DNA from: a virus
Strand: one strand, 5' to 3'
DNA length: 20,190 nucleotides
IMG/VR virus record: IMGVR_UViG_3300036668_000491
Coordinates: 1 to 20,190 of that record
Positions 2,545 through 20,190 of the stretch are shown here, piece by piece. Positions within the stretch are counted from its first letter, which is position 1; the number at the start of each line of letters is the position of its first letter. The translations under genes were made by a program, and so were the position numbers. The notes under the pieces were generated by a model. It had not been told where the DNA came from and did not search any database. It worked only from the letters and a program-made list of their open reading frames with translations.

Positions 2545-2560
2545 TGTTCAGTAGTTTCGT
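2545..2560 (+). repeat. 16-bp direct repeat, copy 1
   Basis: TGTTCAGTAGTTTCGT occurs here, ending five bases before the ATG of the plus-strand gene, and again at 8398-8413. It contains TAGTTTCG, one mismatch from the Bacteroidota TAnnTTTG -7 box, so it may be part of the promoter of the plus-strand gene. If so, the transcript would start at or very near the ATG. Confidence 0.5.
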
Positions 2561-2565
2561 AACTT

Positions 2566-3875: not shown

Positions 3876-3885
3876 TTATACATGT

Positions 3886-3916
3886 AAAAAAAGCCATTAG
3901 ATATATAATGGCTTTT
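3886..3916 (-). terminator. Rho-independent terminator after the tail tube gene
   Basis: AAAAGCCATTA and TAATGGCTTTT form a perfect 11-bp stem around a 6-nt loop (stem 3889-3899 with 3906-3916). On the minus strand the stem runs into seven T (3892-3886). It lies between the tail tube gene and the chaperone gene, so it probably reduces transcription into the low-abundance chaperone and tape measure genes relative to the abundant tube protein. Confidence 0.8.
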
Positions 3917-3937
3917 GATTTAAATTGATTGTATTTT

Positions 3938-4462: not shown

Positions 4463-4474
4463 TTTTAAATTGTT

Positions 4475-5945: not shown

Positions 5946-7243
5946 TATGCAGAAGCTACTAATTCATCTTCAAATAAAGCAATACCTGCATCTGATAGAC
6001 TATCAATTTTCTTAGCTAGAGTAGCATCTGATTGAGCTGTTGTAGCTTTTGGAACATGATTATCTACTGATCTAGCAGCGTTTATACCTGCAACTACCGA
6101 TACTTTAGTGTAGTCAACTGAATTGTATGAGTAATCAGCATCATCCTCAGTTTGTGTGTCTAAACTAGCGGTGGCCTCGTTAGTGTCCATTATGTAAATA
6201 GAATCTACATTATCAAGCACTGGAATAGCCAAGGCTTGAACACTTGTGTTTTCTCTTAATGGATCATTAGTTCTATAAAGCGAACCTAATATAAAGCTAT
6301 CGATTACTCCATATTCAACACCATCAACAGGAGAATCTAACTCAGCCAACTCTGACCAAGTGATACTTCCTAAATCTAAAGATGAAGTAAATGTTACATT
6401 TCCTCGCTCCCAAGGCTCATAACCAACTTTAACACCACCTTTTTCTACCTGGACTGTTTTATCGATTACTATCAATGTCATTCCAAATTCTTCTAAAAGA
6501 AAAGCGTCTATTTCAGTTCTATTAATTCTAAATATCAAACTAGCATCCACGCGATTGAATCCAGCAAAGGCTTTTTTAACCTCTTCATTAGACTTAAAAG
6601 CGTTAAACGTTACTTTATCCATGAAGATGTTTAATAATGTATTGCCGTTACCCCTAGCAGCTGAAACAACATTTTCAATGTCTGTTATAGGTTTAGCACT
6701 TGCTTCAGTCCATACTTTTTGAACTCCAAACTGATTTTTTGATGGAATTCCAAAATCAACACGAATACCAGTCCCTGTATTATTGTTTTCATCAATAATA
6801 GTTACACCGGTTGAGAGAGCCTGGAGAAACATTATGTCAAGACGTTCGTAAACACCTTTAACACCATCGGCTAAATCTGTAAATAGCTTTTGAGCCATTA
6901 CTAGATGCTTGCCACCTCTAGATTTAAGGTTTTTAATTCCTTGAAGCTGAGTTTCATTTAAAGATTTCTTCATTCCAAGCTTTGGAATTTCTCCCTCTGC
7001 TGTTTTGAAAGAACCCCGCTTTTTTAGAGGTAATTCAGAATCTAATGATACGACATCTGCAGCTACAATAGAACTGTTGCTGCTTAATGAAGAAAATTTC
7101 ATGTCTGTAGAAAACTCAGGCTTCAAGTATTTTTGATGCTCAAATACAGGAGTTTCTACTTTTCCGTTAAATCTTTCAGTTAGTTTCGCAGCTACGGCTG
7201 GAAAGTACTTACTTATCAGGTCTTTAAAAATACTAGCTACCAT
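5945..7243 (-). CDS. Major capsid protein (gpE / HK97-fold type)
   Basis: A 432-residue protein starting MVASIFKDLISKYFPAVAAK. Residues about 10-30 contain FPAVAAKLTERFNGK and residues about 90-130 a long amphipathic helix with LNETQLQGIKNLKSRGG, followed by LFTDLADGVKGVYERLDIMFLQAL. The centre (TDIENVVSAARGNGNTLLNIFMDKVTFNAF) and the later stretch GYEPWERGNVTFTSSLDLGS are typical of the capsid protein E family, which adopts the HK97 fold. It forms the icosahedral shell. It follows a scaffold gene and a decoration protein gene. Length matches the family. The last hundred residues (VSVVAGINAARSVDNH) look more variable. Confidence 0.85.
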   Translation of the reverse strand: MVASIFKDLISKYFPAVAAKLTERFNGKVETPVFEHQKYLKPEFSTDMKFSSLSSNSSIVAADVVSLDSELPLKKRGSFKTAEGEIPKLGMKKSLNETQLQGIKNLKSRGGKHLVMAQKLFTDLADGVKGVYERLDIMFLQALSTGVTIIDENNNTGTGIRVDFGIPSKNQFGVQKVWTEASAKPITDIENVVSAARGNGNTLLNIFMDKVTFNAFKSNEEVKKAFAGFNRVDASLIFRINRTEIDAFLLEEFGMTLIVIDKTVQVEKGGVKVGYEPWERGNVTFTSSLDLGSITWSELAELDSPVDGVEYGVIDSFILGSLYRTNDPLRENTSVQALAIPVLDNVDSIYIMDTNEATASLDTQTEDDADYSYNSVDYTKVSVVAGINAARSVDNHVPKATTAQSDATLAKKIDSLSDAGIALFEDELVASA

Positions 7244-7244
7244 C

Positions 7245-7613
7245 TTATTCGCTTATAAATCTGATTAAACTTAATGCATTTTTTGCAGCTGTTGGAATCG
7301 CATATTTTGCGTATGCTTCGTTTACAGTACCACGTACCATAATAGCTGCTTGTGCATTTTCTTTTTTGATTGATGCCACTAAAATACCTGCATAGGTATG
7401 TGAAGCTGGTAAAGTACCTGTTACTGCTAGTGGTTTGTATTCACCGCTGGAAGTTTCCTTTATAATTACATGACCAGCTGATATTTCATCATCAGCAAAC
7501 CCTGTAACGTTTAAAGTGCGACCTCCTGGAATACCTTCAAAGTATTTTACTATAACGACAGAATCGTTAGTAGTATCAACACTTTGGCTTGTAGTTAAAT
7601 TCGCTGTTGCCAT
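7245..7613 (-). CDS. Head decoration protein
   Basis: A 122-residue protein starting MATANLTTSQSVDTTND. It shows the pattern of phage head decoration or stabilisation proteins: a flexible N-terminus, then GRTLNVTGFADDEISAGHV, a middle EYKPLAVTG, then THTYAGILVA-like residues and a terminal AAIMVRGTVNEA. The size fits lambda gpD-type proteins, which bind the expanded capsid at three-fold sites. It lies directly between the scaffold and major capsid genes with a one-base gap to the latter. Confidence 0.75.
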   Translation of the reverse strand: MATANLTTSQSVDTTNDSVVIVKYFEGIPGGRTLNVTGFADDEISAGHVIIKETSSGEYKPLAVTGTLPASHTYAGILVASIKKENAQAAIMVRGTVNEAYAKYAIPTAAKNALSLIRFISE

Positions 7614-7632
7614 TTTTTAAATTAATTTTAGA

Positions 7633-8328
7633 TTAAACGATTGCATCTACTATGTCATTAACTTCTGAATCTGAAGGCTTGTCTGCTGAACCTCCACCAA
7701 TAGGTAAACCTTTTGAGTTAACGGTCACAATTTTAAACTCAGTAACTTCTTCTTCAAGTGCCTTAATTTGGTCCTCGAATGAAGTTTCGCTTTCAAGATT
7801 AATTCTGTTTAACCAACTGTTTTGTAGTTTTTCTGGAAGTTTTTGAAGTGTAACGGATTTGGTAAATAAATCTTTAGCTTGTGAAAGTTTACCAGTGCTG
7901 GCTTTTTCTTTCTCTAGGTTTTCTACCTTACTAATTAATGCTTTAGCCCATTCAGGAGCGTCATTTTGATTTTGCATACCTTCTTTACCTTTACCGTCTT
8001 CATGCCCTTCCGCACCTTCTGGATCCATATCTTTAAAGTATTTCTCTTTAAATGTTTTGATTCCTGAACTCACTTTTTTGTCATGTTCGCTCTGTAATGT
8101 TTTTGAATTTTTTAAAAGTGAATCAAACCCATTTTTTTGAACATACGCATTGAATTCATTTGATGAAAGTACTTTTGAAAAGTCCAATTCGTCAGAGTTT
8201 TGAGTTGATGATAATTGAGTTAAAATCCCCTCGATTTGATCTTCAGATGTGATGTTAATTAAATCTGCAAGACCCTCGCTTAACCCTTTTAATTTAAGTG
8301 CTGCTTTGAGTTTCTCTAATAAAGTCAT
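7633..8328 (-). CDS. Capsid scaffold protein
   Basis: A 231-residue protein starting MTLLEKLKAALKLKGLSE. It is highly charged, with no hydrophobic core stretches. Residues about 45-100 are helical, an acidic Gly-rich linker (DPEGAEGHEDGKGKEG) follows near residue 101, then a coiled-coil region around residues 120-200. The C-terminus is KPSDSEVNDIVDAIV. Charged helical proteins directly before the capsid gene are normally scaffolds that template procapsid assembly. No protease motif is visible, so the scaffold probably leaves without cleavage by a protein encoded here. Sequence alone is not specific. Confidence 0.7.
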   Translation of the reverse strand: MTLLEKLKAALKLKGLSEGLADLINITSEDQIEGILTQLSSTQNSDELDFSKVLSSNEFNAYVQKNGFDSLLKNSKTLQSEHDKKVSSGIKTFKEKYFKDMDPEGAEGHEDGKGKEGMQNQNDAPEWAKALISKVENLEKEKASTGKLSQAKDLFTKSVTLQKLPEKLQNSWLNRINLESETSFEDQIKALEEEVTEFKIVTVNSKGLPIGGGSADKPSDSEVNDIVDAIV

Positions 8329-8390
8329 AGTATTTGTTTTCTTATTTGATTCAAATCTATGTTATAGCCTAATATTGGATAAGGTATTTT

Positions 8391-8735
8391 CTAATTCTGT
8401 TCAGTAGTTTCGTGAAATAAGTCATTCTGAACGCTTCTTGTGGTTATAAAAAACATTTCAGAAAGTTCGTAAAGCATTTCTTTCATCATTTTTTTATCTT
8501 GATTTTTTGCAATATACCACACAGCAAAAAGCTTTCTTTTTTCTTTAAGTCTCTTATTTCTTTTCATGGCATTAAGTCTAAAGATTAATTTTTCATTATT
8601 TAAATAAGCTTCAAATTCACGATGAAGAGTAGATAGTATTTCAAAACTTATAAATAATTCCTCTGATGAGGTGCTTAGACCATGCTCTTCAATGTGGTCT
8701 TGTGTGTTTTTTAAAATCTCTGACCTTATTTCCAT
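8391..8735 (-). CDS. Small helical protein with HTH-like C-terminus
   Basis: A 114-residue protein starting MEIRSEILKNTQDHIEEH. The N-terminal half is helical and acidic; the second half is basic (MKRNKRLKEKRKLFAVWYIA) and ends in EMLYELSEMFFITTRSVQND, which resembles a helix-turn-helix with the recognition helix TTRSVQNDL seen in sigma-like and transposase-type HTH proteins. It lies between the head morphogenesis gene and the scaffold gene, an odd place for a DNA-binding protein. It may act on packaging or late expression, but that is inference. No annotated family is recognised. Confidence 0.7.
   Translation of the reverse strand: MEIRSEILKNTQDHIEEHGLSTSSEELFISFEILSTLHREFEAYLNNEKLIFRLNAMKRNKRLKEKRKLFAVWYIAKNQDKKMMKEMLYELSEMFFITTRSVQNDLFHETTEQN
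8398..8413 (+). repeat. 16-bp direct repeat, copy 2
   Basis: Identical to 2545-2560. Here it lies inside the final codons of the small HTH-like gene (on the minus strand it encodes part of ETTEQ), so the match may be coincidental at this copy. Confidence 0.45.
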
Positions 8736-8737
8736 GT

Positions 8738-9775
8738 TTATTTCAATTCAAATCCATCTTTACTTTTTTTGAAGTTATCTTGAATAAAATAAGGCTTGTT
8801 TGAAAAACTTTTAATCCTTTCTGAATTTTCTTTGATATATTTTTGTGCTGCAGTAGGTATTGACTTCACATACTTTGACTCAGGTATTTTCATGCCATTA
8901 ACTTGTTTTGCAAAGTCTTCTTTAGACATTAATTTAGTAGTTGTGAAGCAAAGGCAATTTGGGTGCCAGCCTGTGAATTGAAAATCTTTTGGGTATTCCC
9001 CCTGTAATTCATCACAAATATCATATTCAGGATGCGCTGGGCTTAAACTAACCTGAATGCCTAGTACAAATGGTAATTGCTTCCTTCTTTCATTATCCGA
9101 AGTTCTGTAAGCTATATTTATTTCATTACGGGCTAACCTTAGTGAGTTTTTATAACTAGAACGATATACACCTCTCCCGGGTTTATAATTTTTAGCAGGA
9201 TCTGAAATAACCAATTTTCCTGTTTCAGGATTTCTTAATCTTCTAAATCTTTTTTCAGGTTCTTTTAAGTACCTCTGTAAGTCTGATGCTAATGATTTAG
9301 CAGAACTACCTGATGTTAGGCCGCTGGCTAAAAATGATTCTAATTGTTGCTTTGTTTGATTGGTAAGATTCCAAACCCTATCAGATAATTTTAAACCTCC
9401 TTTAGTTCTATTCTGAAAAGCTTTTAAAGCTTCTTTATTGCGGTTAAAGAACTTTTTAGATCCGCTTTCTGTAATAGGAATGCCTTTTATGTAATTTGAA
9501 ACTAAACTATCATTATGGCTATTAGAAAGTTCCCAAGCTGAAGCTGTACTTAATGAAATATTCTCGTAAATTAATTTTCGGTACTTAGACAATACAGCAT
9601 TTAACTTTTTCTTTACTTCAGGGTTTTTATGCCAAACGCTAGAATTGGCATTTATTTTATATAGTTTAAGAACTGAAGAAAGTTCTTTAGCCATATTTTG
9701 ATATATGGAGCCAAAAACATTTTCCTGTAATAACAAGAAGTTTAATAGTTGTTTATGGCTCTCTGGCGTTCTCAA
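8738..9775 (-). CDS. Head morphogenesis protein (Mu gpF-like)
   Basis: A 345-residue protein starting MRTPESHKQLLNFLLLQE. The first two thirds are helical. The diagnostic part is near residues 205-285: RLARNEINIAYRTSDNERR, then a stretch with HPEYDICDELQ and the ending GWHPNCLCFTT, matching the Cys/His-rich HPNCxC end of the phage Mu gpF-like domain (PF04233). These proteins are minor head components needed for head maturation and are usually encoded next to the portal gene. Here two short genes lie between portal and this gene. It starts directly beside the stop of the NTF2-like gene. Confidence 0.88.
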   Translation of the reverse strand: MRTPESHKQLLNFLLLQENVFGSIYQNMAKELSSVLKLYKINANSSVWHKNPEVKKKLNAVLSKYRKLIYENISLSTASAWELSNSHNDSLVSNYIKGIPITESGSKKFFNRNKEALKAFQNRTKGGLKLSDRVWNLTNQTKQQLESFLASGLTSGSSAKSLASDLQRYLKEPEKRFRRLRNPETGKLVISDPAKNYKPGRGVYRSSYKNSLRLARNEINIAYRTSDNERRKQLPFVLGIQVSLSPAHPEYDICDELQGEYPKDFQFTGWHPNCLCFTTTKLMSKEDFAKQVNGMKIPESKYVKSIPTAAQKYIKENSERIKSFSNKPYFIQDNFKKSKDGFELK

Positions 9776-10102
9776 TTATAATAACCGATTAATACTTATT
9801 GGATTAACCCCCCAATCACCATGAATGTCAGCATTAAATGGCTCTGATTCACAAATTAGCCTCGCTATTGCTTTGCGTTGCTTACCATCTACTTTTAAAG
9901 TCAATTCAAAATCATGAACAACGTCATTAACTTCATTTAAAGATGTTATTTTATATGACTTAAGCCTTTCATTAAAGAGGTTTTTAAGTTGTATTTTAGA
10001 ATTAGCAACTTTATAAGTCTTTTGACTCAAATCGTGCATTTTTTTGTAATCCTCAGCTTTCCAAGCTTCAAGAAATGATTTTATTGTTTCTGTAGATTTC
10101 AT
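9776..10102 (-). CDS. Small NTF2/SnoaL-like protein in the head cluster
   Basis: A 108-residue protein starting MKSTETIKSFLEAWKAEDYK. The opening helix pair (SFLEAWKAEDYKKMHDLSQ), a gap, then four likely strands (KITSLNEVNDVVHDFELTLKV, RKAIARLICES, GDWGVNPISI) give the order of an NTF2-like cone fold (SnoaL-type or DUF4878-like). No catalytic residue set is obvious. The ATG overlaps the upstream stop (ATGA), so it is translationally coupled to the 60-residue gene. It lies between portal and MuF-like genes. Its role in head assembly is unknown; the fold reading is moderate in confidence. Confidence 0.7.
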   Translation of the reverse strand: MKSTETIKSFLEAWKAEDYKKMHDLSQKTYKVANSKIQLKNLFNERLKSYKITSLNEVNDVVHDFELTLKVDGKQRKAIARLICESEPFNADIHGDWGVNPISINRLL

Positions 10103-10281
10103 ATTTTCTTTGATCTTTTAGTAGATGCATAGTTAGCATTACTGATTTTAAAACGTTTCTTAGGCTTTATTAGATGAGCTGCTCGCTCTTTATTAATCTC
10201 ATAATTAGCTTGCTTGAATGTCTTCTTTCCAAAGAGCACCCATTTCCATTTTAGCCACAGTACTTTTAATTTTTTAATCAT
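10099..10281 (-). CDS. 60-residue basic protein of unknown function
   Basis: MIKKLKVLWLKWKWVLFGKK opens a very basic protein with three Trp in the first 15 residues; the rest is Lys-rich (LIKPKKRFKISNANYASTKR). The N-terminal stretch could be a short amphipathic or membrane-associated helix. It begins one base after the portal stop codon and overlaps the next gene by four bases (ATGA), so it is a real member of the operon. Function is unknown; a minor virion or nucleic-acid-binding protein is possible. Confidence 0.65.
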   Translation of the reverse strand: MIKKLKVLWLKWKWVLFGKKTFKQANYEINKERAAHLIKPKKRFKISNANYASTKRSKKI

Positions 10282-10282
10282 C

Positions 10283-11641
10283 TTATAAAAATGAACTTCC
10301 TAAATCCTGAGTCCTTGAAGCTGCATCTTCGCTATTAATTGCCTCTAATTCTAATTCATCATTACTAACTAATGGATTGTGACTAATTGCTGTTTTCTGG
10401 GACATGATAGCCTTTCCTCCAGTGGCCTCTGATAACACTTCTATAATTTCTTTTAAATTCTCTGGCAATACAGATGTAAATCTTACATCTATCTCTAATT
10501 CGTCAAAATTCAATTTAGAATTTATAGTTTTAGAACTCGCAATAATTAAATTAAACATTCTGCTAATTGCCGTTTGGTAATCCCCTTCATCCCACTTAGC
10601 CTTTAGAATTGATCCGAAAAACAATAGTTTTAAAGCAATTCCAGAAACGCTACCTAGCCCTTTAACGCTATCAAATGATAAGTCTGGAGTATCTGTAAGC
10701 CCATATATCAATCCTTTAGAGGTTTCAAATTCTAATTTTAAAGCTTCAGGTGCCCGGTCCCATGAAAGCACCTCCAAATCGGCTTCTATGATATTACCTT
10801 TTTCAGTTTCTATAATGTCAAGCTGAACCATTTTACCAGTTTCATCTTTCTTAGGGATTGAAGCTACAGCGCCTTTAACCTTATACATTGGGCTGGCAAA
10901 ATATCCATTGGTATCTACAAACTTAGAAAATGACATTTCATAGGTGTCTATTAAATCTTGAACCTCCCACCACTCTGGATTCTCTTGGCTTAAATAAACT
11001 ACTGGAATTTTACCAAATAGATTTTCGGTCTCTCCTCCATCTGTTAAGGCCCATCCGTTACCACCTTCTTTAAATATGTAGTTTTTTTCTTTAGTCCAAA
11101 CGTAAAGGTACTTAGTCTCTTTGTCAGATTCTTTTGTATTATACTCCCAGGCAAAGGAAACCATGTCTCCAAAAGCGTCAAAAACAGGATATACTTTTCC
11201 GTTTTTAGAAGTTAAAAGCCTTGATTTCAGCTTTGGTTCTTCTCCTTCGTTTTGAACAATAAAGAAAACTATTGTAGCTTCAGTTTCTGATTTCACTGTT
11301 TTACAAAATTCTAAAAGAATTGAATTCATTCTTAATGACTTCCAGTAGTCCCTTAAGTATTCTGAAGGCTCTTTATTTTCAGAATAAACAACTTCAATGG
11401 GGCTGCCAAATAAAAATGAAGCAGCGCTTTTAACTATTTTACGCTGAAAAGGAATAGGGATTTTTGCAACTGTTACAGTATCGTTTTTAGAGGTTTTGTC
11501 AATACGCTTACCTACTTGTCCGTTTCTTATATCTCGCTTATTATTGTATTCATTAGCGTTGTTTTGAACACCCTCTTTAGAGTTTAGCAATAGATAAGCC
11601 TCTGATATTTTATTCTCTGATAATAGTTCTAAAAATGTCAT
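10283..11641 (-). CDS. Portal protein (SPP1 gp6-like)
   Basis: A 452-residue protein starting MTFLELLSENKISEAYLLLN. The N-terminal segment includes NKRDIRNGQVGKRIDKTS and PFQRKIVKSAASFLFG, followed by a beta-rich wing (KSRLLTSKNGKVYPVFDAFG, YLYVWTKEKNYIFKEGG) and a helical stem and crown region with EVQDLIDTYEMSFSKFVDTN and FSTSKGLIYGLTDTPDLSFD-like residues. This layout matches the SPP1-type portal family. Twelve copies form the ring for DNA entry and exit. It directly follows the large terminase, as expected. Confidence 0.88.
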   Translation of the reverse strand: MTFLELLSENKISEAYLLLNSKEGVQNNANEYNNKRDIRNGQVGKRIDKTSKNDTVTVAKIPIPFQRKIVKSAASFLFGSPIEVVYSENKEPSEYLRDYWKSLRMNSILLEFCKTVKSETEATIVFFIVQNEGEEPKLKSRLLTSKNGKVYPVFDAFGDMVSFAWEYNTKESDKETKYLYVWTKEKNYIFKEGGNGWALTDGGETENLFGKIPVVYLSQENPEWWEVQDLIDTYEMSFSKFVDTNGYFASPMYKVKGAVASIPKKDETGKMVQLDIIETEKGNIIEADLEVLSWDRAPEALKLEFETSKGLIYGLTDTPDLSFDSVKGLGSVSGIALKLLFFGSILKAKWDEGDYQTAISRMFNLIIASSKTINSKLNFDELEIDVRFTSVLPENLKEIIEVLSEATGGKAIMSQKTAISHNPLVSNDELELEAINSEDAASRTQDLGSSFL

Positions 11642-11652
11642 AAATTGTTTAT

Positions 11653-13167
11653 TTAAAATAGACCTAAGTCGTTTGCGTTTACTTCTGGTGAAATTCTAAA
11701 ATTTGACTTGCTTTCTTCTTCTATGATTCCTGTCAATGTATCTGGAGCATCATCAAATTCATTTAAAGAAAATATTTTTTTATACTTTGTAACCGCTTTG
11801 TAAAATTCAGGCCATCTAATATGCCAATCATCTGGAAATACAATTCTCCTGTTTACTGTTGCTGAATTAGAGAATATTCTAGCCTCTTTATTATTGCTTT
11901 GATGAAACCAGTTGTAAGTTATTGGAATTTCTTCTTTTTTTGTGATAGCTTCCACGTTTCTTGCAAAACTCCTACCTCCATTATTGCTTTCAATTTTTGT
12001 AGTGTTTATTAGATTATTTATTAAAATTGATGCAACTAAAGGCTCTGTTTTTTCCATAGCTTTATCAGTATAAACTAGGTCAATCACATATAGGTGTTCG
12101 TTGGTTTCGCTTAAAGCAACTCCGTAGTTGATAGAACACAGATTATCTTTTCCAGTATCGGCTGTGTCTGTATAATTCTTTTTGATTTTGAACACTGGTA
12201 GTGATGAATACGTTTTAAACTCATTAGGATAGAGCAATCCGTCTTTATTTACAGGGTTTCCTTGATATAAGCAATCAAATTTATCTGGATCCTTATCTCT
12301 AGTAGAAACTAATTTTTGTAAAGAATGCTTTTTTGGCCATAAAGCCTCTCCATCTTTTCTTTCATCAAATTCATTTATGCTACCCTCTTTAATTGCGGTC
12401 CAGTTAATTTTTAAAAATTCATCATGTTTTAATTTTACAATTAAATCATCAAGGGATTCATTCCCATTCCATTCAACTACTTTTCCAACATCTTCCAATT
12501 TAGCAATCAAATCATTTTCGGACCATCTTGTAAATACAATTAGCTGTTGAGAGTCATTGTGGAGTCTTGTTTCTGCAACTGATATATACCAGTCCCATAT
12601 TCTTTTTTGTACAATAGGTGAGTTACCATCGTGCCAGTCTTTGTACAAATCATCCATTATTAAAACATCTACAGGATCTCCTGTAAGTGGCCCACCTACA
12701 CCTACAAACTTCATAGATCCATCGCTGTTAATAGATTCTCTATTTTGATTTGTATTTGCTTTCTGTCCAGGGTAACCTCTATCTGGGTATTTTACATTAG
12801 GAAAAATAGCTTTATACTCATTTTCGTTCATTATTCCCATTATCTCCCTTCCAAACTTTTCAGCCTTATGAGCAGCAAAACTAACTACTGCTTGTTTTTC
12901 ATCTGGTCTAAGGCCCGCAATATAAGCTGGTAGTCTTCTCGAGCTCCCTTCAGATTTACCGTGCTGAGGTGGCATAGAAATAATCAAATTCTTTATTTCA
13001 GTATTTGCAAAGCGGTTCAGTATGTCATAGAACTTAATATGAAACCATTCAGGCTCAAATTTTTTAAAAGTAGTCGCTGTGAACTTTAGTAAATCATTCC
13101 TGCTTTCAGATATTATTTGATTATACAAAAGATTTTCAAGTTCAATTGATTCATCCTTTGTTAGCAT
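11653..13167 (-). CDS. Terminase large subunit
   Basis: A 504-residue protein starting MLTKDESIELENLLYNQ. Walker A is MPPQHGKS at residues 65-72; Walker B is VDVLIMDD at 166-173; the coupling motif FTRW is at 212-215. The later half, from about residue 330 (DTADTGKDNLCSINYGV), carries the acidic residues expected of the RNase H-like nuclease domain. It is the ATP-driven motor and nuclease that packages DNA through the portal. It overlaps the small subunit gene by 17 nt and precedes the portal gene. The length is normal for the family. Confidence 0.95.
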   Translation of the reverse strand: MLTKDESIELENLLYNQIISESRNDLLKFTATTFKKFEPEWFHIKFYDILNRFANTEIKNLIISMPPQHGKSEGSSRRLPAYIAGLRPDEKQAVVSFAAHKAEKFGREIMGIMNENEYKAIFPNVKYPDRGYPGQKANTNQNRESINSDGSMKFVGVGGPLTGDPVDVLIMDDLYKDWHDGNSPIVQKRIWDWYISVAETRLHNDSQQLIVFTRWSENDLIAKLEDVGKVVEWNGNESLDDLIVKLKHDEFLKINWTAIKEGSINEFDERKDGEALWPKKHSLQKLVSTRDKDPDKFDCLYQGNPVNKDGLLYPNEFKTYSSLPVFKIKKNYTDTADTGKDNLCSINYGVALSETNEHLYVIDLVYTDKAMEKTEPLVASILINNLINTTKIESNNGGRSFARNVEAITKKEEIPITYNWFHQSNNKEARIFSNSATVNRRIVFPDDWHIRWPEFYKAVTKYKKIFSLNEFDDAPDTLTGIIEEESKSNFRISPEVNANDLGLF

Positions 13168-13588
13168 TTCTCTTATTTATTAAAACTTCAATTCTAGCGT
13201 CCCTTTCTTCATCTGATATTTGAAGTGGTTTTCCGCCTGATGTTATATCTACCTTTCTAATAACTAAACCTTCAATTTTGATAATCTCCCTTTCAACCAT
13301 CATTATGGCTCTAATTCCAGAGGGAGAGCCTTTGTGCTCTTCTTTTAAACTTCTTTTCAATTGCTTTAATTCAGCGATTTTAGCACTTCTCTTTAAATCA
13401 ATGTCAATATCAATGTCTTCTTTCCAGTTTTGATAAGCCTTTTTTAAATAGTTTCTAGACTGTCTTAAGCCAATACTCCATTGGCTCTTTGATTGTTTTA
13501 AAATCAAATAGTCCTGAACACCATCAATGATCCAGCCCTGAATAGTAAATATTCTTCTTTCTAATTCTATTTTAGAACTTTTGGCCAT
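13151..13588 (-). CDS. Terminase small subunit
   Basis: A 145-residue protein starting MAKSSKIELERRIFTIQGW. The first 75 residues carry a helix-turn-helix-like region (IFTIQGWIIDGVQDYLILKQ, SKSQWSIGLRQSRNYLKKAY) that would recognise the packaging site, followed by a charged, probably oligomerising helix region (DLKRSAKIAELKQLKRSLKE). It directly precedes and overlaps the large subunit gene. Assignment is by position and the HTH-like region. Confidence 0.78.
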   Translation of the reverse strand: MAKSSKIELERRIFTIQGWIIDGVQDYLILKQSKSQWSIGLRQSRNYLKKAYQNWKEDIDIDIDLKRSAKIAELKQLKRSLKEEHKGSPSGIRAIMMVEREIIKIEGLVIRKVDITSGGKPLQISDEERDARIEVLINKRNANKG

Positions 13589-13618
13589 ATTTTCTTTATA
13601 TGAATCATTATGAATTAT

Positions 13619-13849
13619 CTACTCACTGGGATACATTCTTTTAATTACTTCAATATGTCTTTTGAGTTCATAGACTCTATCGTTGATTTTAATTCTTTCT
13701 TTTTCCCTCATTACTCGAATAGCTTCATTGTCTTCTGGGATTACCTGTGGTTCATAAGCTTTCAAAGCATCTTCATTAATGCTTTTCTCTTTTTCCAGAT
13801 AATCGATAATAGTGTCTCTCATTTGAATTAATGAATTATAATTGCTCAT
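13619..13849 (-). CDS. Small coiled-coil-like protein
   Basis: A 76-residue protein starting MSNYNSLIQMRDTIIDYLEK. It is almost entirely helical and charged, with a second helix MREKERIKINDRVYELKRHI. It starts inside the 3' end of the methyltransferase gene (14-nt overlap) and ends 30 nt before the small terminase. It has no recognisable family. It could be a partner of the methylase or of the small terminase, but nothing in the sequence decides this. Confidence 0.6.
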   Translation of the reverse strand: MSNYNSLIQMRDTIIDYLEKEKSINEDALKAYEPQVIPEDNEAIRVMREKERIKINDRVYELKRHIEVIKRMYPSE

Positions 13850-15284
13850 AGGTGAAATCTTTTAAGGTTAACTTACCGTTTAAGTGAGTAAAATTAACAT
13901 CTAGATTTCTTTTATTGCAATAGTTTATGTATCTATTTATGGAAGATTGAATATACATTGGTTCAATATCCGTGAATCTACCTTTCCTTTTTGTGTGTTC
14001 TGTTGCTATTAGAGCGGTACCAGATCCAAGAAACCAATCAATTACAATATCACCTTTGTTTGTGGTGTCAAGAATTGAATCTGCAATCATATTTACAGGC
14101 TTGGGTGTGGGGTGGTTTTTTAATTCAAACCTATCAGGATTAGCTGTTGAAGTTGCTGATGGGTATCTCCATACGTTTGTTCTAATTCTGTGCTGAAGTT
14201 CTAGGTGAGATAAGTGTTTAGCTTTATCTCCGTTCTTGAAAATAAAACACCACTCGTTATTGTCTTTGTAGAAATGCCCTCCATAATCTAGCATATCTTT
14301 ATTCCAGAGCGCTTTGGCTTTTTCATCAGAGAATATAAAACAAAGCTCATGTTGAGCTCTATAAAAAGATCCATTGGCCATCATGTCTTTATTCCAAACA
14401 CAAACTTGTTTTGGCTGTGGGCTACCGTAAATTAGTCTAGCGGCTTCTCCCATATGCCATGAGTGCCTAAAGTCCATAAAAATATAATGGATTGCACCTT
14501 GTACCGAATTGTCTATTGATGCTTGCATGATCAAAGAAAGAAACTTGACAAACTCTTCATCGGTCATTTCTCCACTGGCCATAGCAAAATCTTCATGTTT
14601 TTTCTCGTTTTTATTTGTAAAGAAGTTTGCTGGTAAATTATATGGGGGATCACAATTTATAATCCTTGCTTTTTCTCCATTCATCAGTTCAGTAACTGAG
14701 TTTTCATCCATGAAAGAAGAGCAAATTAACCGGTGGTCATTTATTTGAAATAAATCACCAGGCTTAACTATTATTTTATCCGGATGAATAATAACGTGCG
14801 GCTCCTCACAAGAACCTGTATCGTATATGTCAAATTTCTGTTCGTATCTTTCAATAGAGAAATCAGGAATATTTATAAAGTTTTTTAAGTCTGGTAGATC
14901 AAGTTCGAATTCTGTTACAAAATCAAATAATCCTTTCTGTGTAATTTTAGCGTATGCAGAAGAATAAACAATAACAAGCTCTGCAGCTTCTTTTTTGTTA
15001 ATACAATCAATAAAAGTAGCTGGAAGTAGTTCTGGCACCTCAATACCTTTTTCTATTAGGTTTTTAAGATCAAGGAACCTATGCTTACCATCAAGGCAAT
15101 ACAATACACCTTCATTCTCCCAAACCTTAAAAGGGTCTATGAATTGATATTTTATTAATGAATTTTCTAGTTTCTCATCACCAGAGGGTATCCAATCTTT
15201 AAAATTATCCTGCTGAATAAATTCAAGGGTTTTCCACTCAATAGTTTGAGTCTTTAATACTTTTGAATTTATGACTTTCGTCAT
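13836..15284 (-). CDS. ParB-like domain / DNA methyltransferase fusion
   Basis: A 482-residue protein starting MTKVINSKVLKTQTIEW. Residues about 15-115 resemble a ParB/Srx-like N-terminal domain (LIKYQFIDPFKVWENEG, LYCLDGKHRFLDL). From about residue 170 it is an amino-methyltransferase: the catalytic DPPY is at 212-215 and the SAM-binding motif DWFLGSGT at 416-423, with HPTPKPVNMI at 391-400 between. DPPY before the SAM motif means the beta arrangement of N6-adenine or N4-cytosine methylases. Phages carry such orphan enzymes to protect their DNA from host restriction. Between them, residues about 297-349 show a tandem duplicated block. It is the first gene of the late operon. Confidence 0.88.
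   Translation of the reverse strand: MTKVINSKVLKTQTIEWKTLEFIQQDNFKDWIPSGDEKLENSLIKYQFIDPFKVWENEGVLYCLDGKHRFLDLKNLIEKGIEVPELLPATFIDCINKKEAAELVIVYSSAYAKITQKGLFDFVTEFELDLPDLKNFINIPDFSIERYEQKFDIYDTGSCEEPHVIIHPDKIIVKPGDLFQINDHRLICSSFMDENSVTELMNGEKARIINCDPPYNLPANFFTNKNEKKHEDFAMASGEMTDEEFVKFLSLIMQASIDNSVQGAIHYIFMDFRHSWHMGEAARLIYGSPQPKQVCVWNKDMMANGSFYRAQHELCFIFSDEKAKALWNKDMLDYGGHFYKDNNEWCFIFKNGDKAKHLSHLELQHRIRTNVWRYPSATSTANPDRFELKNHPTPKPVNMIADSILDTTNKGDIVIDWFLGSGTALIATEHTKRKGRFTDIEPMYIQSSINRYINYCNKRNLDVNFTHLNGKLTLKDFTYEQL
14238..14396 (-). repeat. Tandem duplication inside the methyltransferase
   Basis: Residues 297-318 (WNKDMMANGSFYRAQHELCF onward) are repeated at 327-349 (WNKDMLDYGGHFYKDNNEWC onward), both ending CFIF, with a period of 30-31 residues and one residue of length difference. 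Related phage methylases usually carry this segment once, from general knowledge of the family. The DNA copies are still similar (TGGAATAAAGAcATG and TGGAATAAAGAtATG). Confidence 0.75.
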
Positions 15285-15304
15285 CTATGTGATGTTGTTG
15301 GGGT

Positions 15305-15323
15305 GCAGTGTTAAGATCACTGC
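15305..15323 (-). promoter_or_regulatory. Leader hairpin 1 of the late operon
   Basis: GCAGTG and CACTGC form a 6-bp stem around 7 nt, about 20 nt upstream of the methyltransferase ATG at 15284. It could be a regulatory hairpin or protein-binding site in the transcript leader. It lacks a T tract, so it is not a terminator. Confidence 0.4.
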
Positions 15324-15335
15324 CAGAAATATGTA

Positions 15336-15351
15336 CCTGATTAAAATCAGG
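15336..15351 (-). promoter_or_regulatory. Leader hairpin 2 of the late operon
   Basis: CCTGATT and AATCAGG form a 7-bp inverted repeat with a 2-nt centre (in RNA more likely 6 bp around 4 nt). It lies between the candidate promoter and the first hairpin. As DNA it could also be an operator. Confidence 0.4.
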
Positions 15352-15376
15352 ATTTTGAAGAAATATGTGTAAAAAA

Positions 15377-15384
15377 CAAATATA
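15377..15384 (-). promoter_or_regulatory. Candidate late promoter -7 box (TATATTTG)
   Basis: TATATTTG on the minus strand matches the Bacteroidota -7 consensus TAnnTTTG exactly. It lies about 93 nt upstream of the methyltransferase start and would give a leader of roughly 85 nt holding both hairpins. No well-spaced -33 TTTG is evident, so this is a candidate only. Confidence 0.5.
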
Positions 15385-15417
15385 ATAAATAACTAGATAT
15401 TTATTATTAAAAAGCAA

Positions 15418-15458
15418 TAAGAATTTTCAAAATATAGCTTTTTTATTGAAGATTCTTA
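15418..15458 (-). terminator. Long inverted repeat, possible terminator of the TIR gene
   Basis: TAAGAAT and ATTCTTA (7 bp) enclose TTCAA and TTGAA (5 bp) with one unmatched pair between and a 15-nt loop. On the minus strand TTGCTTTTT follows. It lies between the TIR-STAND gene and the candidate late promoter, so it may stop transcription of the defence gene or insulate the two units. The T tract is interrupted, hence the low confidence. Confidence 0.4.
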
Positions 15459-15543
15459 ATTACGTCTTTTACAGCTTTAAGTTCAGAATTTTCATAAGTA
15501 GAGTATTATTAACTACTAATTATGCACCGTGTCTACACAGTAT

Positions 15544-15591
15544 CCAGCTCTTGACTATCGGCGAGCCGAATACTTAGTTATTGGCAGCTGG
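15544..15591 (-). other. 48-nt imperfect hairpin just after the TIR-STAND stop codon
   Basis: CCAGCT and AGCTGG form the outer stem, with CTA/TAG and TCGG/CCGA pairs inside separated by unpaired bases. It begins 3 nt after the stop codon and is richer in G and C than its surroundings. No T tract follows on the minus strand, so it is not a normal terminator. The bulged, partly paired form recalls integron attC sites or a REP-like element. Confidence 0.45.
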
Positions 15592-15594
15592 CTT

Positions 15595-18156
15595 TTATTT
15601 ATGTTTTGCTATTTCAGCTAACAATTTTGACGCAGGAAGATGTAGTTTGTCTTCTATTTCCTTCAGTTTTTTAAATTCGATTTTATGCATTATGCAATGT
15701 TCTACAACTTTAAATTTTAAAAGTTGTTCCGCTGTTTTGGAAAAATCCTTATTAGAAATCCTATCAGATATTTCATTTAGCCTGACATTCTTATCATACC
15801 ACATTTTAATTCCATGGTTAACTATGAAAGCTGCAGGAGTTGATTCTTTTGTGCTCACATTTTCAGCTATTTTCAATAGGTTAATAGAGCCTAAAGCATG
15901 AATTGCCTTAGTAATAAATCCATGCAATACTCCAAAATTTACATTCCAATAAATTGCTTTAACTAGTTTTTCAACCTTATCAACGCTTAAGTCTTTTCTA
16001 TCTTCATTTTCTTCTATGATATGGTTTATGCGCTCTTTTAGAAGATTGACAATTAATTGTTCTGTTCCTTCGTCTTTAATTATTTCAATGAATGAGGTTA
16101 AAATTCTTAGGTGTAATTTAAGACCTTGTTCAAAAATGTATTCAAGACGATCTAAGCTGAGTGAACCCGAACGGTTTTTAATGATTAAACCCATTACTTC
16201 AACCGTTTTTATGCTCAATCTTAAATCCTGAAGTAATTCAGAAGAAATTTCATCATTATCCAAAGGAGTGTTGTTTGGTTCATCATTTCTTGTGTCTTCA
16301 ATTTCAGATTTTTCAATCAGCAACTTTTTTCTTTCTGCTTCTGGGTCATGTTGATAAGAAGGTAAAATTGCCTTTACTATTTTGTCTTCATGTTTATCAA
16401 AAAATGATAGTTCGTCCGTTTCTAAAGTGGCAGGCTCATACTTTTCAAATAGTATTTCGGCATTCAGCAAGAGTTCGTCAAGCAGGTAGTCTGATTTTGT
16501 ATGATGTGCAATAAATACTGTTATGTATGCATTCTCATCCTTGTGAAGATTTGAAAGAAGGTTAGCTATTGCTTCTTTTTGTTCAGCTTCATGTTCTGAA
16601 AGGTACTTGGCAACAAAAAAGAAGTAAATGTAGGAATAGCAGAAACCATACTGATTAAAAGAATCGAATTTACATATGTTTACATTGGAAAGTTTCGCCA
16701 CCAATTCACTTAATGGAATAGGTAAATTGAAGTTGGATTCATAAAACTCTGTAAATTCTTCAAAATCATTTCTATCTAGATTAACTCCATTCTTTTTGTC
16801 AAAAATCCAATATGACAATTCAGTTAAAAAGTTGGTATAAATGTCGATTTGTTCATTTGTAACACCTTCTCTTCTTAGATATAAGTAAATCAAAGCCTGA
16901 TAACAATGACCTTGAGATGTTATTTCTGAATCAAGAGGTTTTTGTGTGTCTTGGGCTGCAAGTATTGATAGAATGAAAAATGGATATGAAGGCATGATGC
17001 CTTTACCAAAAATAATTCCAAGAGAATTCTCAATTTTTTCAGTTTTATCATCAATGCTTTGCTGTAGGTGGTTAGGGTTGATTTGTATTTGAGATTCTTC
17101 TTTTACTTCAATCCATTTTCGTATTAACTCATTGCGCTCTAAGGATGTAAATTCTCTTATTTTAAACTTGCTATATTCAGCTATTAAAGCTTGATTTTTG
17201 ATATTCAAGCCAAAAATATCGTCAACTATTAAAACCTGATACCTAAATGATTCATATTGTTCAATATATTTTTCCTGATATTTTGCAATATGGAAGTTGT
17301 CGACTATTGGAACAACTCTTTTAATATCAATCTCATCAAAACTTTCGAAATCATATTGTTCTAAAAATGCTTTTTCGAGTTTTTTGTGAGGGTTTCCTAA
17401 ATATTTGTTTTCATCATCTAGAAAGATAGGAACGAAGTTATGTTCTCTATAAATTTGAAATAGCACTTTACAAAGTGTGGTTTTTCCCGCTTGGTTTTCT
17501 CCTGCAATAATTAGCTTCTCATAAATAAGTATTTCTGAGTTGAATTTTTTAGAATCGTACTTATGTGAAACTTCTTCTTCATTATAACATTTTAATCTAG
17601 GGTAAACGAATATGTCGTCAAGGTTTAATACCTCTTTGTTTTTATGTGATTTGGATAAGATATCCGCACTATTTAGGAATTTGTTAAATCGGTCTTTTAA
17701 TTTCAAGGATTTGATTGTGTTTACCGAATGACAAACTTTCATTATCCAATTTATAGCATCTAACCACCCTTCGTTTTTATCTGTAAATGAAGTCACGGCT
17801 TTGCCATCCGTTGGTATCGCCAATAATTCGCTTAATTCTTTATGAGTAGTCCATGCACATGGACTTAGAATTATTGGGATTACTCTGATACCTTTATTCT
17901 CTCTTAATTTTAGGGCAATATCTTTCTCTTCTAAGCAAGGTTTTGAAGCTAGAAAATTGCTTGAAATCATTAAACAGATTATATCTGCATTTTCTAAGTT
18001 ATTGTCAATATAATTTTGAAAGCCTTCTCCTGTCTCAATCTTTCTGTCATACCATTCTGATAGAATGCCATTATTTTTTAATGGTGCAACATGAGTGATA
18101 AAATCTTCAATTAGATTTTCGTCTTTGTGTGAGTAGCTTATAAAAAGTTTATTCAT
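15595..18156 (-). CDS. TIR-STAND (NACHT-like) NTPase, candidate anti-phage defence protein
   Basis: An 853-residue protein starting MNKLFISYSHKDENLIEDF at 18156. A GTG 11 codons upstream (18189) is open, but the TIR domain begins at once after this ATG. Residues 1-140 are a TIR domain: FISYSHKDE, WYDRKIETGEGF, and the SxxFLxSxxCxxE loop with the likely catalytic Glu at 77 (Glu76 adjacent), as in TIR domains that cleave NAD+. Walker A is GENQAGKT at 219-226 and Walker B ends at Asp286 (VVPIVDN). SYIYFFFVAKYL at 508-519 is where NACHT proteins end their winged-helix region. The remaining 330 residues are helical and probably the sensor; no LRR, WD40 or TPR pattern is obvious. Family knowledge suggests that infection triggers oligomerisation and NAD+ depletion. 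The trigger here is unknown. Confidence 0.88.
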   Translation of the reverse strand: MNKLFISYSHKDENLIEDFITHVAPLKNNGILSEWYDRKIETGEGFQNYIDNNLENADIICLMISSNFLASKPCLEEKDIALKLRENKGIRVIPIILSPCAWTTHKELSELLAIPTDGKAVTSFTDKNEGWLDAINWIMKVCHSVNTIKSLKLKDRFNKFLNSADILSKSHKNKEVLNLDDIFVYPRLKCYNEEEVSHKYDSKKFNSEILIYEKLIIAGENQAGKTTLCKVLFQIYREHNFVPIFLDDENKYLGNPHKKLEKAFLEQYDFESFDEIDIKRVVPIVDNFHIAKYQEKYIEQYESFRYQVLIVDDIFGLNIKNQALIAEYSKFKIREFTSLERNELIRKWIEVKEESQIQINPNHLQQSIDDKTEKIENSLGIIFGKGIMPSYPFFILSILAAQDTQKPLDSEITSQGHCYQALIYLYLRREGVTNEQIDIYTNFLTELSYWIFDKKNGVNLDRNDFEEFTEFYESNFNLPIPLSELVAKLSNVNICKFDSFNQYGFCYSYIYFFFVAKYLSEHEAEQKEAIANLLSNLHKDENAYITVFIAHHTKSDYLLDELLLNAEILFEKYEPATLETDELSFFDKHEDKIVKAILPSYQHDPEAERKKLLIEKSEIEDTRNDEPNNTPLDNDEISSELLQDLRLSIKTVEVMGLIIKNRSGSLSLDRLEYIFEQGLKLHLRILTSFIEIIKDEGTEQLIVNLLKERINHIIEENEDRKDLSVDKVEKLVKAIYWNVNFGVLHGFITKAIHALGSINLLKIAENVSTKESTPAAFIVNHGIKMWYDKNVRLNEISDRISNKDFSKTAEQLLKFKVVEHCIMHKIEFKKLKEIEDKLHLPASKLLAEIAKHK

Positions 18157-18203
18157 TTGATATGTGTTTGTTTTTTTCGCATGAAGCACAACGCAGGGCT
18201 AAA

Positions 18204-18215
18204 CGTACTAGTACG
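18204..18215. promoter_or_regulatory. 12-bp perfect palindrome upstream of the TIR-STAND gene
   Basis: CGTACTAGTACG is a perfect palindrome 48 bp upstream of the TIR-STAND start. On the minus strand it overlaps TACGTTTA, one mismatch from the TAnnTTTG -7 box. It may be an operator for a dimeric repressor acting on the defence gene. Confidence 0.4.
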
Positions 18216-18240
18216 CATATATCTTCTTTGTCATTACCTA

Positions 18241-18354
18241 CTAATCTAAGGGATTTTTTATTGTTTTAAAAGTATTTGTAGCTACATGGGTGTAAATTTC
18301 TGTTGTTTTACTAGAGCTATGTCCTAATAATACTTGTATTTGTCTTAAATCTAC
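18241..18354 (-). pseudogene. 3' remnant of a tyrosine recombinase (integrase) gene
   Basis: The minus strand encodes VDLRQIQVLLGHSS followed by SKTTEIYTHV and ends KTIKNPLD then TAG at 18243. This is the C-terminal end of a XerC/D-like tyrosine recombinase: LGHSS holds the conserved His and TTEIYTH the nucleophilic Tyr. The arginine boxes and everything upstream are missing. The homology stops at the 3' end of the neighbouring small gene, overlapping its last bases. An ATG at 18363 would open a 40-residue frame, but with no catalytic Arg it cannot be an active enzyme. The ending resembles integrases of Bacteroidota; whether it was a phage, integron or other integrase cannot be decided. Confidence 0.82.
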
Positions 18355-18578
18355 TCGTGCCATTCTCCAAGTATAGGTGTCAGGGCTTTCATTTCGTCAA
18401 GCGTTACTGGCTTGCCGTTCAGCTCTGAAATAGTCAAATCGCAAGTAAGTAAATTATCGCCTTCATATGTAAATTCTACTTCTAAAATGCCCTTAGCGTA
18501 TCGGTTTGTATGATATTGGTCGTGTTCATACTTTTCGGTTAATCTAAAACCAAGCCCTTTTAATTCATTTTCAGTCAT
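18351..18578 (-). CDS. Small phage protein of unknown function
   Basis: A 75-residue protein starting MTENELKGLGFRLTEKYEHD. It has two beta-type stretches, GILEVEFTYEGDNLLTCDLT and a C-terminal helix EMKALTPILGEW. Small proteins of this general pattern are frequent in early regions of Bacteroidota phages, but no function is known to me. The last codons overlap the start of the integrase remnant, so the final residues (WHE) may come from the junction and not from the ancestral gene. Confidence 0.7.
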   Translation of the reverse strand: MTENELKGLGFRLTEKYEHDQYHTNRYAKGILEVEFTYEGDNLLTCDLTISELNGKPVTLDEMKALTPILGEWHE

Positions 18579-18595
18579 TCTATTAATTTAAAATC

Positions 18596-18898
18596 TTAAA
18601 ACTCTGCGCTCTCATCAGTTTGTCTTAATAGCCTAGCAAAAACTTCTACAAATTTTTCCTTTTTAGATAGTTTGTGTTCTCCCATTGCATCCAAAATAAC
18701 ATGTACTTTTTCGTGATAGAATGTATCTAATGTATTACAGTCAGTTACTTTTTCGCCTTTATATTCGGAGCAAATATTTATTTGGTTATCTGTAAAACTA
18801 CAATCGCCTAATACTCCTTCATTACTTAGTCTTATGTTATCAAAGCCTACATTTATTGTAGATGCAAAGACTTTAAATTTTTTTGGTATATTTTTCAT
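18596..18898 (-). CDS. Small HExxH metallopeptidase-like protein
   Basis: A 100-residue protein starting MKNIPKKFKVFASTINV. The motif HEKVH at 62-66 follows a hydrophobic helix start (TLDTFYHEKVHVILDAMG), and Glu81 or Glu85 in KEKFVEVFARLL could be the third metal ligand, so a minimal zincin fold is likely. Two beta-type segments precede it. Small predicted metallopeptidases of this kind are common in early regions of Bacteroidota phages; the substrate is unknown. It starts 48 nt before the 42-residue membrane peptide ends, and ends 17 nt before the next small gene. Confidence 0.78.
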   Translation of the reverse strand: MKNIPKKFKVFASTINVGFDNIRLSNEGVLGDCSFTDNQINICSEYKGEKVTDCNTLDTFYHEKVHVILDAMGEHKLSKKEKFVEVFARLLRQTDESAEF

Positions 18899-18946
18899 TC
18901 TAATTTAATTTCTATATTAATAATCATGACTCTTTAAATGAAATCT

Positions 18947-19075
18947 CTATGAAGTTATGTATTTATCAAAAAGGTCTAGCAGAGTGCAGATCACCACTAA
19001 AAGAGTGCTGACTGAAATAAAAACCAGGGAGCAGGTAAGGGTTGTCAAAATCGTGTCTATAATTTTATTTTTCAT
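18947..19075 (-). CDS. 42-residue single-span membrane peptide
   Basis: ATG at 19075 opens MKNKIIDTILTTLTCSLVFI and the frame ends DLFDKYITS with TAG at 18947-18949. Residues about 9-33 are a continuous hydrophobic span, preceded by positively charged residues and followed by a short charged tail (N-in, C-out by the positive-inside rule). Such short proteins are easy to miss. It fills most of an otherwise empty 225-bp gap between two small genes. It could be a holin-like or regulatory membrane peptide. A plus-strand frame overlaps this region but reads through the next gene as well. Confidence 0.5.
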   Translation of the reverse strand: MKNKIIDTILTTLTCSLVFISVSTLLVVICTLLDLFDKYITS

Positions 19076-19123
19076 GATATTTTTTAATGTTAAAACATAC
19101 TCATATCGGTTAGTTGTAGGCAA

Positions 19124-19375
19124 TTACTTTGCTTCAAAGTGTTTGAACATATTTGGGCAAAGTCCTGATGCTCTAGAGTGCAATGCTTTTTTATTATCAC
19201 AATGCTTGCAAAGTAACTGTTCGCTTTGCTCTACAACAACGGGTATAGTTAATTGCTCTAATTCGTTTACATAATCAAGCAGTTTATTAAATTCTCTTAA
19301 TGCTTTTGCAATTTGATAGATATTTAATTCTCTACCTGTCATTTGTGCTTTTAAGTTTTCTATATCTATTTTCAT
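19124..19375 (-). CDS. Small protein with CxxC zinc-binding-like motif
   Basis: An 83-residue protein starting MKIDIENLKAQMTGRELNIY. The N-terminal half is helical (IAKALREFNKLLDYVNELEQ). The second half has CKHCDNKKALHSRASGLC at about residues 56-73, a CxxC with a later Cys and His that may bind zinc. The same SEQL-C...LHS element occurs in the partial gene at the right edge, so the two proteins share a module. The start is preceded by the shared leader. Confidence 0.68.
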   Translation of the reverse strand: MKIDIENLKAQMTGRELNIYQIAKALREFNKLLDYVNELEQLTIPVVVEQSEQLLCKHCDNKKALHSRASGLCPNMFKHFEAK

Positions 19376-19405
19376 TTTATTAAGTTTTTAGTTATTAATC
19401 CGCAC
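19373..19405 (-). repeat. Shared gene leader, copy 1
   Basis: On the minus strand this is GGATTAATAACTAAA followed by a short AT stretch and AATAAAATG. Near-identical leaders precede the starts at 19697 and 19986. It probably holds the translation initiation region of these small genes. Confidence 0.5.
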
Positions 19406-19433
19406 TAACCATATTACCATCCGTTAGCCACTA

Positions 19434-19697
19434 TTAATTTCCTAAATATCCATCTACATACTTATCTCTATCTACAATGTTTGCTCCTTCATCTTGGCAC
19501 ATTAGTACATAATCTAAGAAGTCAATTAACAGTTCACGTTGTTTGCTAACATTATCTATAGGTAATATTTGCCCTTGCTTTTTTTCTTCAAACTCACTTT
19601 CTACCCATTTAGCAATTGCAGCTATTTGGTCATCATAAGCATATAGCCCTCTAGTAATCTCTCTTTTAATCTTTAGATATATTGTTTTTGCTTGCAT
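19434..19697 (-). CDS. Small hypothetical protein
   Basis: An 87-residue protein starting MQAKTIYLKIKREITRGLY. It is helical and charged through the middle (AIAKWVESEFEEKKQGQ) and ends YVDGYLGN. No motif is recognised. It shares a leader with its neighbours and a 14-bp DNA match (encoding KYVDG) with the next small gene at 19750-19986. Reading-frame length and position support a real early gene. Confidence 0.6.
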   Translation of the reverse strand: MQAKTIYLKIKREITRGLYAYDDQIAAIAKWVESEFEEKKQGQILPIDNVSKQRELLIDFLDYVLMCQDEGANIVDRDKYVDGYLGN

Positions 19698-19726
19698 TTT
19701 ATTAAATTTTAGTTATTAAATCGGGT
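19695..19726 (-). repeat. Shared gene leader, copy 2
   Basis: On the minus strand the sequence reads TTTAATAACTAAAATTTAAT followed directly by AAAATG, closely matching the leader of the gene starting at 19375. Confidence 0.5.
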
Positions 19727-19749
19727 AAAAACTACCTATACACAACACG

Positions 19750-19986
19750 TTATAAGCCATTAGAGGTTAAGAAGTCAAACAATCGCTTCCTTAAGGTTTG
19801 GGGAAGTAATGGGCTTTCCCCATCTACATACTTTTGTATGTCTTTTTTTCTTACTTCTGTTAGTATTTCAAGTACTTCTTGGTAGCTATCTTCAGCCCAT
19901 ACTCTGCAATCTACTTTTGGAGGAGACATACTTGGTCCTAATCCTATTTTGTTGTCTCCTTTTTTAATTACTTGTGGTACATTCAT
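19750..19986 (-). CDS. Small hypothetical protein
   Basis: A 78-residue protein starting MNVPQVIKKGDNKIGLGPSM. Residues about 29-50 form a helix (AEDSYQEVLEILTEVRKKDI) and the C-terminus is LPQTLRKRLFDFLTSNGL. It is unrecognised. The stretch KYVDG is shared with the neighbouring small gene. It is preceded by the common leader and lies in the same strand order as the other early genes. Confidence 0.6.
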   Translation of the reverse strand: MNVPQVIKKGDNKIGLGPSMSPPKVDCRVWAEDSYQEVLEILTEVRKKDIQKYVDGESPLLPQTLRKRLFDFLTSNGL

Positions 19987-20017
19987 TTTCCGTATTTTTA
20001 GTTAATTAATCCGTATT
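19984..20017 (-). repeat. Shared gene leader, copy 3
   Basis: On the minus strand GGATTAATTAACTAAAA precedes a divergent stretch and AAAATG. It is the most different of the three leaders and also encodes the last residues of the 20-residue frame upstream. Confidence 0.4.
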
Positions 20018-20060
20018 CCTCTTCTTCGTGTCTTTCTCCAAATAGTTCTTTTAAATCCAT
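19998..20060 (-). CDS. Possible 20-residue peptide
   Basis: ATG at 20060 encodes MDLKELFGERHEEEEYGLIN and ends with TAA two codons before the next gene's leader. It is acidic and unrecognised. It may be a real short gene or a leader peptide; length alone cannot decide. Confidence 0.35.
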   Translation of the reverse strand: MDLKELFGERHEEEEYGLIN

Positions 20061-20096
20061 ACTGTTTTTATATTTTTTCGTTAGCGGTAATTGTGC

Positions 20097-20190
20097 TTAC
20101 TTCGGTTCTCTTACAAAAACTTGTTCGCCACATTTAAAGCATTTACCATTAAAATCTGTCGAGTGCAATCCTTCGCACAACTGTTCGCTT
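20097..20190 (-). CDS. Partial zinc-binding-like protein, runs off right edge
   Basis: The frame is open from the right edge to TAA at 20097-20099. The visible C-terminus is SEQLCEGLHSTDFNGKCFKC followed by GEQVFVREPK. Three Cys and a His suggest a small zinc ribbon. The element SEQL-C...LHS matches the CxxC protein at 19124-19375, with seven fewer residues in the middle. The N-terminus lies outside the window. Confidence 0.65.
   Translation of the reverse strand, partial: SEQLCEGLHSTDFNGKCFKCGEQVFVREPK

Follow-up and report, generated by a model that had tools for sequence, protein, structure and literature searches.

The window analysed here is a stretch of 20,190 nucleotides, a 20-kb contig from an uncultured phage, and carries on its minus strand a gene that combines a TIR domain, a NACHT-type STAND NTPase and a helical C-terminal region in a single protein (Table 1). 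An alternative GTG start at position 18189 would lengthen the reading frame, and the closest homologues start at the equivalent of position 18156. Packaging and head genes lie downstream of this TIR-NACHT gene, and replication-type genes lie upstream, as seen in a near-twin phage. Many related viral contigs conserve the neighbouring methyltransferase, with its ParB-like N-terminal half, and differ in the genes upstream of it. Within the tail operon, a lone plus-strand reading frame of 229 amino acids (positions 2566 to 3255) is 96.5% identical in the twin; it has no Pfam, PADLOC or convincing PHROG match and is possibly a moron. The twin also carries a tyrosine integrase and a reading frame that is Xre-like by eye, so that the phage lineage is probably temperate. 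The host is probably a member of the Bacteroidota.

Table 1. Features of the TIR-NACHT locus and its surroundings in the window
Feature	Positions	Strand	Remarks
Terminase large subunit, first gene of the packaging and head operon	11653..13167	-	phrog_38, E value 1e-80
DNA methyltransferase with ParB-like N terminus, right-hand neighbour of the slot	13836..15284	-	phrog_498, E value 2e-60; PF01555; shared with the twin
3' stump of the 308-aa gene (intact in the twin)	15443..15493	-	ENSELKAVKDVIKNLQ*, identical in window and twin
Cargo slot, replaced by other genes in the twin	15494..18581		3,088 bases without a match in the twin
TIR-NACHT gene with DS-8-like core	15595..18156	-	853 aa; intact reading frame from ATG, stop codon included
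Helical C-terminal putative sensor	15598..16611	-	Residues 516 to 853 (about 330 aa); DS-8 profile match, helical model
Conserved C-terminal motif EVMGLIIKNRSGS	16162..16200	-	Residues 653 to 665; 14 C termini aligned
NACHT-type STAND NTPase	16612..17721	-	Residues ~146 to 515; core model and Foldseek
Walker B, VPIVDNFH	17290..17313	-	Residues 282 to 289, with D286
Walker A, GENQAGKTT	17476..17502	-	Residues 219 to 227, read directly; G and K conserved in relatives
TIR effector domain	17722..18156	-	Residues 1 to 145; Pfam match at residues 5 to 114
E77, putative catalytic glutamate of the TIR domain	17926..17928	-	Invariance and Cat1 alignment
XerC/D-like tyrosine recombinase, C-terminal stump only; upstream of the TIR-NACHT gene	18241..18363	-	PF00589, XerD
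75-aa ORF inside the swapped stretch	18351..18578	-	Unmatched in Pfam, PADLOC and PHROG
phrog_1233 gene, left-hand neighbour of the slot	18596..18898	-	Shared with the twin

The N-terminal domain matches PF13676 (TIR_2) with an E value of 7.6e-15 and PF01582 (TIR) with an E value of 1.3e-9, both exceeding the cut-off, and a profile search with it also retrieves Cat1 and the NAD+ hydrolase AbTIR. The best-scoring PADLOC model for the first 146 residues is the ThsB-type TIR model (E value of 2.3e-35). All 14 relatives compared keep E77, which falls on the C-x-x-E segment in the alignment with the TIR protein Cat1; from what is established for TIR domains it is the putative catalytic glutamate.

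The central region gives weak Pfam matches to AAA_14 and nSTAND_NTPase4 and carries both Walker motifs, with the aspartate of Walker B invariant in 16 relatives. The core of the protein was modelled with AlphaFold from an alignment of 16 diverse sequences (pLDDT of 81.7, pTM of 0.80); an earlier full-length model, built from 6 close sequences, had a pLDDT of only 46.8 and was set aside. The nearest solved folds found by Foldseek are NLRC4 (E value of 1e-7), NOD2 and NLRP3, with the SIR2-STAND protein EfAvs5 weaker (E value of 4e-3). A firm resemblance to NLRs is confined to the NTPase part, because the TM-score over the whole core is low (0.27); the target TM-score reaches 0.60 for the isolated NTPase part of NLRC4. 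The NACHT assignment is sound on this basis. Sequence matches of the core to RecA repeats in the PDB cover the P-loop only and were not read as a sign of kinship. The initial annotation had proposed a TIR domain with a likely catalytic glutamate and a complete P-loop NTPase from the letters alone, and both proposals are borne out by these results; no close homologue with a different established role was found.

The same annotation described a helical C terminus of roughly 330 residues (520 to 853) that could not be matched to a known sensor, and took the sensor type to be undetermined and novel. The C terminus is indeed all helical in the model and gives no convincing Pfam family and no repeat family, in agreement with the claim that an obvious repeat-based sensor is lacking; it is helical and non-TPR, rather than a repeat sensor of the TPR or WD kind. 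Matches to DUF4351 and Integrator in this region were judged to be due to chance. The claims of novelty and of an unmatched region do not hold, since profile searches matched this region to DS-8 and PDC-S60. Residues 144 to 839 align with positions 301 to 993 of the 994 positions of the NCBIfam profile DS8_antiphage (NF053861), with 431 bits and an E value of 5.9e-129. This score lies below the equivalog cut-off of 790 bits, and relatives that bear a metallophosphoesterase (MPE) score 861 to 1131 bits. The first 300 positions of the profile, which are unmatched, correspond to the MPE domain, where the protein of the window has its TIR domain. The same core matches positions 188 to 889 of the 906 positions of the PADLOC candidate profile PDC-S60 (E value of 4.5e-57). 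By profile homology, the NACHT domain and the C terminus thus belong to the DS-8/PDC-S60 family, and the sensor family is a known one. The founder, DS-8, was found with DefensePredictor and has been validated as an anti-phage system that consists of one protein; its activity needs residues of both the effector and the NACHT domain (PMC13092281). The most conserved element of the C terminus, G-x-[IL]-x-[KR]-N-x-x-G-S, is common to TIR- and MPE-bearing proteins among the 14 C termini aligned.

The core family spans genomes of Bacteroidota and Fibrobacterota, plasmids and P2-like phages, where the Bacteroidota survey is a sample of 395 and 396 genomes and not a census. A TIR domain is fused to the DS-8-type core in the window, in L002 to L006, L070, L099, L100 and L105, and in the plasmids L008 to L010. 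In three related contigs, two of them P2-like phages, a TIR ORF is followed by a separate NACHT-core ORF (L102:9465-12016, L103:5226-7777 and L107:9498-11659). An MPE is fused to the same core in L011, L071 to L074, L101, L104, L106 and L109, and L108 is split into several ORFs. The distribution of TIR and MPE on the core tree needs at least two changes, and a single MPE clade is rejected (p-AU of 0.026). The tree thus lends modest support to a repeated exchange of the two effectors, its support being limited because some deep branches are weak. The P2-like phages hold the gene at two genomic sites, between the replication nickase and the portal in L103 and L105, and between tail completion and baseplate genes in L106 and L107. 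Defence-type genes adjoin some members, namely a CapV-like patatin in L002 and HsdS in L070 and L074. A single-sequence scan of viral contigs and a tblastn search of INPHARED phages gave no relatives; the viral relatives were found only by a profile scan of viral contigs.

The nearest relatives, with 65 to 88% identity, are found in Bacteroidota MAGs and in one Fibrobacterales genome. Their neighbourhoods have no genes in common with the phage of the window, and the closest homologues lie in non-phage contigs. The possibility that a cellular donor supplied flanking DNA along with the gene was rejected, as DNA homology with L002 to L007 stops at the ends of the gene. L007 contains an ORF of 371 amino acids (L007:9992-11107) that is 87% identical to the protein of the window over residues 1 to 316 and unrelated thereafter, which would reflect either a truncated gene or a break in the MAG assembly.

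The near-twin (IMGVR_UViG_3300041583_000386; 40,564 bases) is 98.9% identical to positions 1 to 15493 of the window and 98.4% identical to positions 18582 to 19087, and the stretch between these two segments is missing from it. In its place, the twin (L012:7863-9842) carries a SocA/Panacea antitoxin (PF13274; E value of 8e-21), an ORF of 149 amino acids with a weak PemK match below the cut-off (E value of 0.05), and an ORF of 308 amino acids (phrog_25239). From these matches, the slot of the twin appears to hold a toxin-antitoxin-like pair. Of the gene for the 308-aa product, the final 16 codons persist in the window, so that the window allele looks derived. Upstream of the TIR-NACHT gene, the recombinase stump matches positions 144 to 170 of PF00589 below the cut-off (E value of 3.3e-7) and XerD with an E value of 1.2e-6. 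An origin from the integrase of the phage itself was rejected, as the C termini differ by eye, and the stump is possibly a trace of the arrival of the cargo. The presence of other genes in the slot of so close a relative supports well the view that the TIR-NACHT gene is swappable cargo, and the placement between the early genes and the late operon originally suggested is confirmed by the gene order of the two phages. The two phages, otherwise almost the same, thereby show defence-type cargo being exchanged at one site, and they belong to a phage group outside the well-studied P2/P4 hotspots. Positions 19088 to 20190, in the early region, also lack a DNA match in the twin and form a second mosaic stretch, so that mosaicism is not limited to the cargo slot.

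Taken together, the protein is probably a single-protein, NLR-like anti-phage receptor in which a TIR domain sits on the NACHT and sensor portion of a DS-8-type protein. The phage, itself probably temperate, carries the gene as exchangeable cargo and would exclude rivals with it through cleavage of NAD+. By analogy with work on TIR-STAND proteins and DS-8, the gene would be expressed in the lysogen, where the helical C terminus would recognise some sign of an infecting phage. Nucleotide exchange and oligomerisation of the NACHT domain would follow, and the clustered TIR domains would cleave NAD+ by means of E77. The cell would stop growing or die before the rival phage replicates, as in abortive infection, and both the resident phage and the kin of the host would benefit from the exclusion of rivals from the lysogen. 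Phage exclusion had been put forward in the initial annotation together with a sensor of novel type; the likely role, the TIR-STAND identity and the cargo status stand, but the novel sensor does not.

The main alternative is that the TIR domain does not deplete NAD+ but makes a messenger of the cADPR type that activates a separate effector elsewhere, as in Thoeris. The preference of the TIR domain for the ThsB model speaks for such a route. However, no partner effector adjoins the gene, which is surrounded by the 75-aa ORF, the recombinase stump and the DNA methyltransferase, the fused NACHT core would suffice for oligomerisation, and DS-8, its MPE-bearing relative, has been described as working with one protein (PMC13092281). 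A messenger role is thus unlikely. It is equally improbable that the gene is a passenger, a host defence gene that recombination brought into the phage, where it is neither expressed nor selected. The stumps of the recombinase and of the displaced 308-aa gene flank it, so that the insertion looks recent and untidy, and scans for Bacteroidota-type and sigma-70 promoters upstream of the gene stayed at chance level, with no convincing promoter found. Against this, the frame of 853 amino acids is intact, aligns over its full length with homologues and keeps its catalytic and Walker residues, and the toxin-antitoxin-like pair at the slot of the twin, together with the recurrence of the family in P2-like phages, suggests selection for such cargo. 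An assembly artefact, in which a bacterial defence gene was wrongly joined to a phage contig, is very improbable even for a metagenomic contig with its closest homologues outside phages, because the DNA flanking the 3,088-base stretch on either side matches a single phage at 98 to 99% identity, and a 3' gene remnant survives at one edge. For a chimera to arise, misassembly would have had to strike phage DNA twice, with order and orientation correct both times.

The anti-phage receptor reading links a previously unannotated phage gene to DS-8, and, with MPE replaced by TIR on one core, DS-8 can be put to the test by comparing domains. Such a comparison predicts that the same trigger activates the TIR and MPE versions and that the MPE acts as an end effector. 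Tentatively, the DS-8/PDC-S60 core may be a single conserved module for sensing phages, with TIR and MPE effectors naturally exchanged on it in cells, plasmids and phages. If so, all members of the core family would respond to the same input, and the MPE would kill the cell or halt its growth, as an effector that can stand in for a TIR NADase and vice versa, and would not be a regulator that degrades a signalling nucleotide.

Among known systems, DS-8 is the closest in design, as a single protein in which the NACHT NTPase, with its Walker motif kept, and the whole C-terminal region align with the protein of the window. The two differ in the N-terminal domain, MPE in DS-8 and TIR here, and in that the present copy is borne by a phage of Bacteroidota type. 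PDC-S60, which is a candidate model only, differs in its N-terminal part, as the first ~190 positions of its profile are without a match. The animal NLRs (NLRC4, NOD2 and NLRP3) and EfAvs5 share the NACHT/STAND fold that gives the best structural match, but only 11 to 16% identity, and have other N-terminal domains and C termini of LRR or other types; no Avs (AVAST) profile is found among the PADLOC matches of the protein, and EfAvs5 is a weak fold match. ThsB of Thoeris has a TIR domain of the same type, but lacks a NACHT core and works with ThsA, and no match of the ThsA type is found among the neighbours of the TIR-NACHT gene. Satellite- and phage-borne TIR-NLR and TIR systems are known to block phages, and defence hotspots have been reported in P2-like phages (Rousset 2022; PMC9122126). 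The TIR-NLR of a P4-like satellite, located at a defence hotspot and shown to block phages, resembles the present protein in its TIR domain, central STAND NTPase and C-terminal sensor and in its residence on a mobile element (PMC9122126). It is set apart, by description, by its C-terminal TPRs, whereas the protein of the window has no Pfam repeat and a core of the DS-8 family. Exclusion by mobile-element-borne TIR-NLRs (PMC9122126) and the core itself, from DS-8, are thus already known; what is new is a TIR-bearing branch of the DS-8 core in a phage of this group, together with a natural cargo swap in its near-twin.
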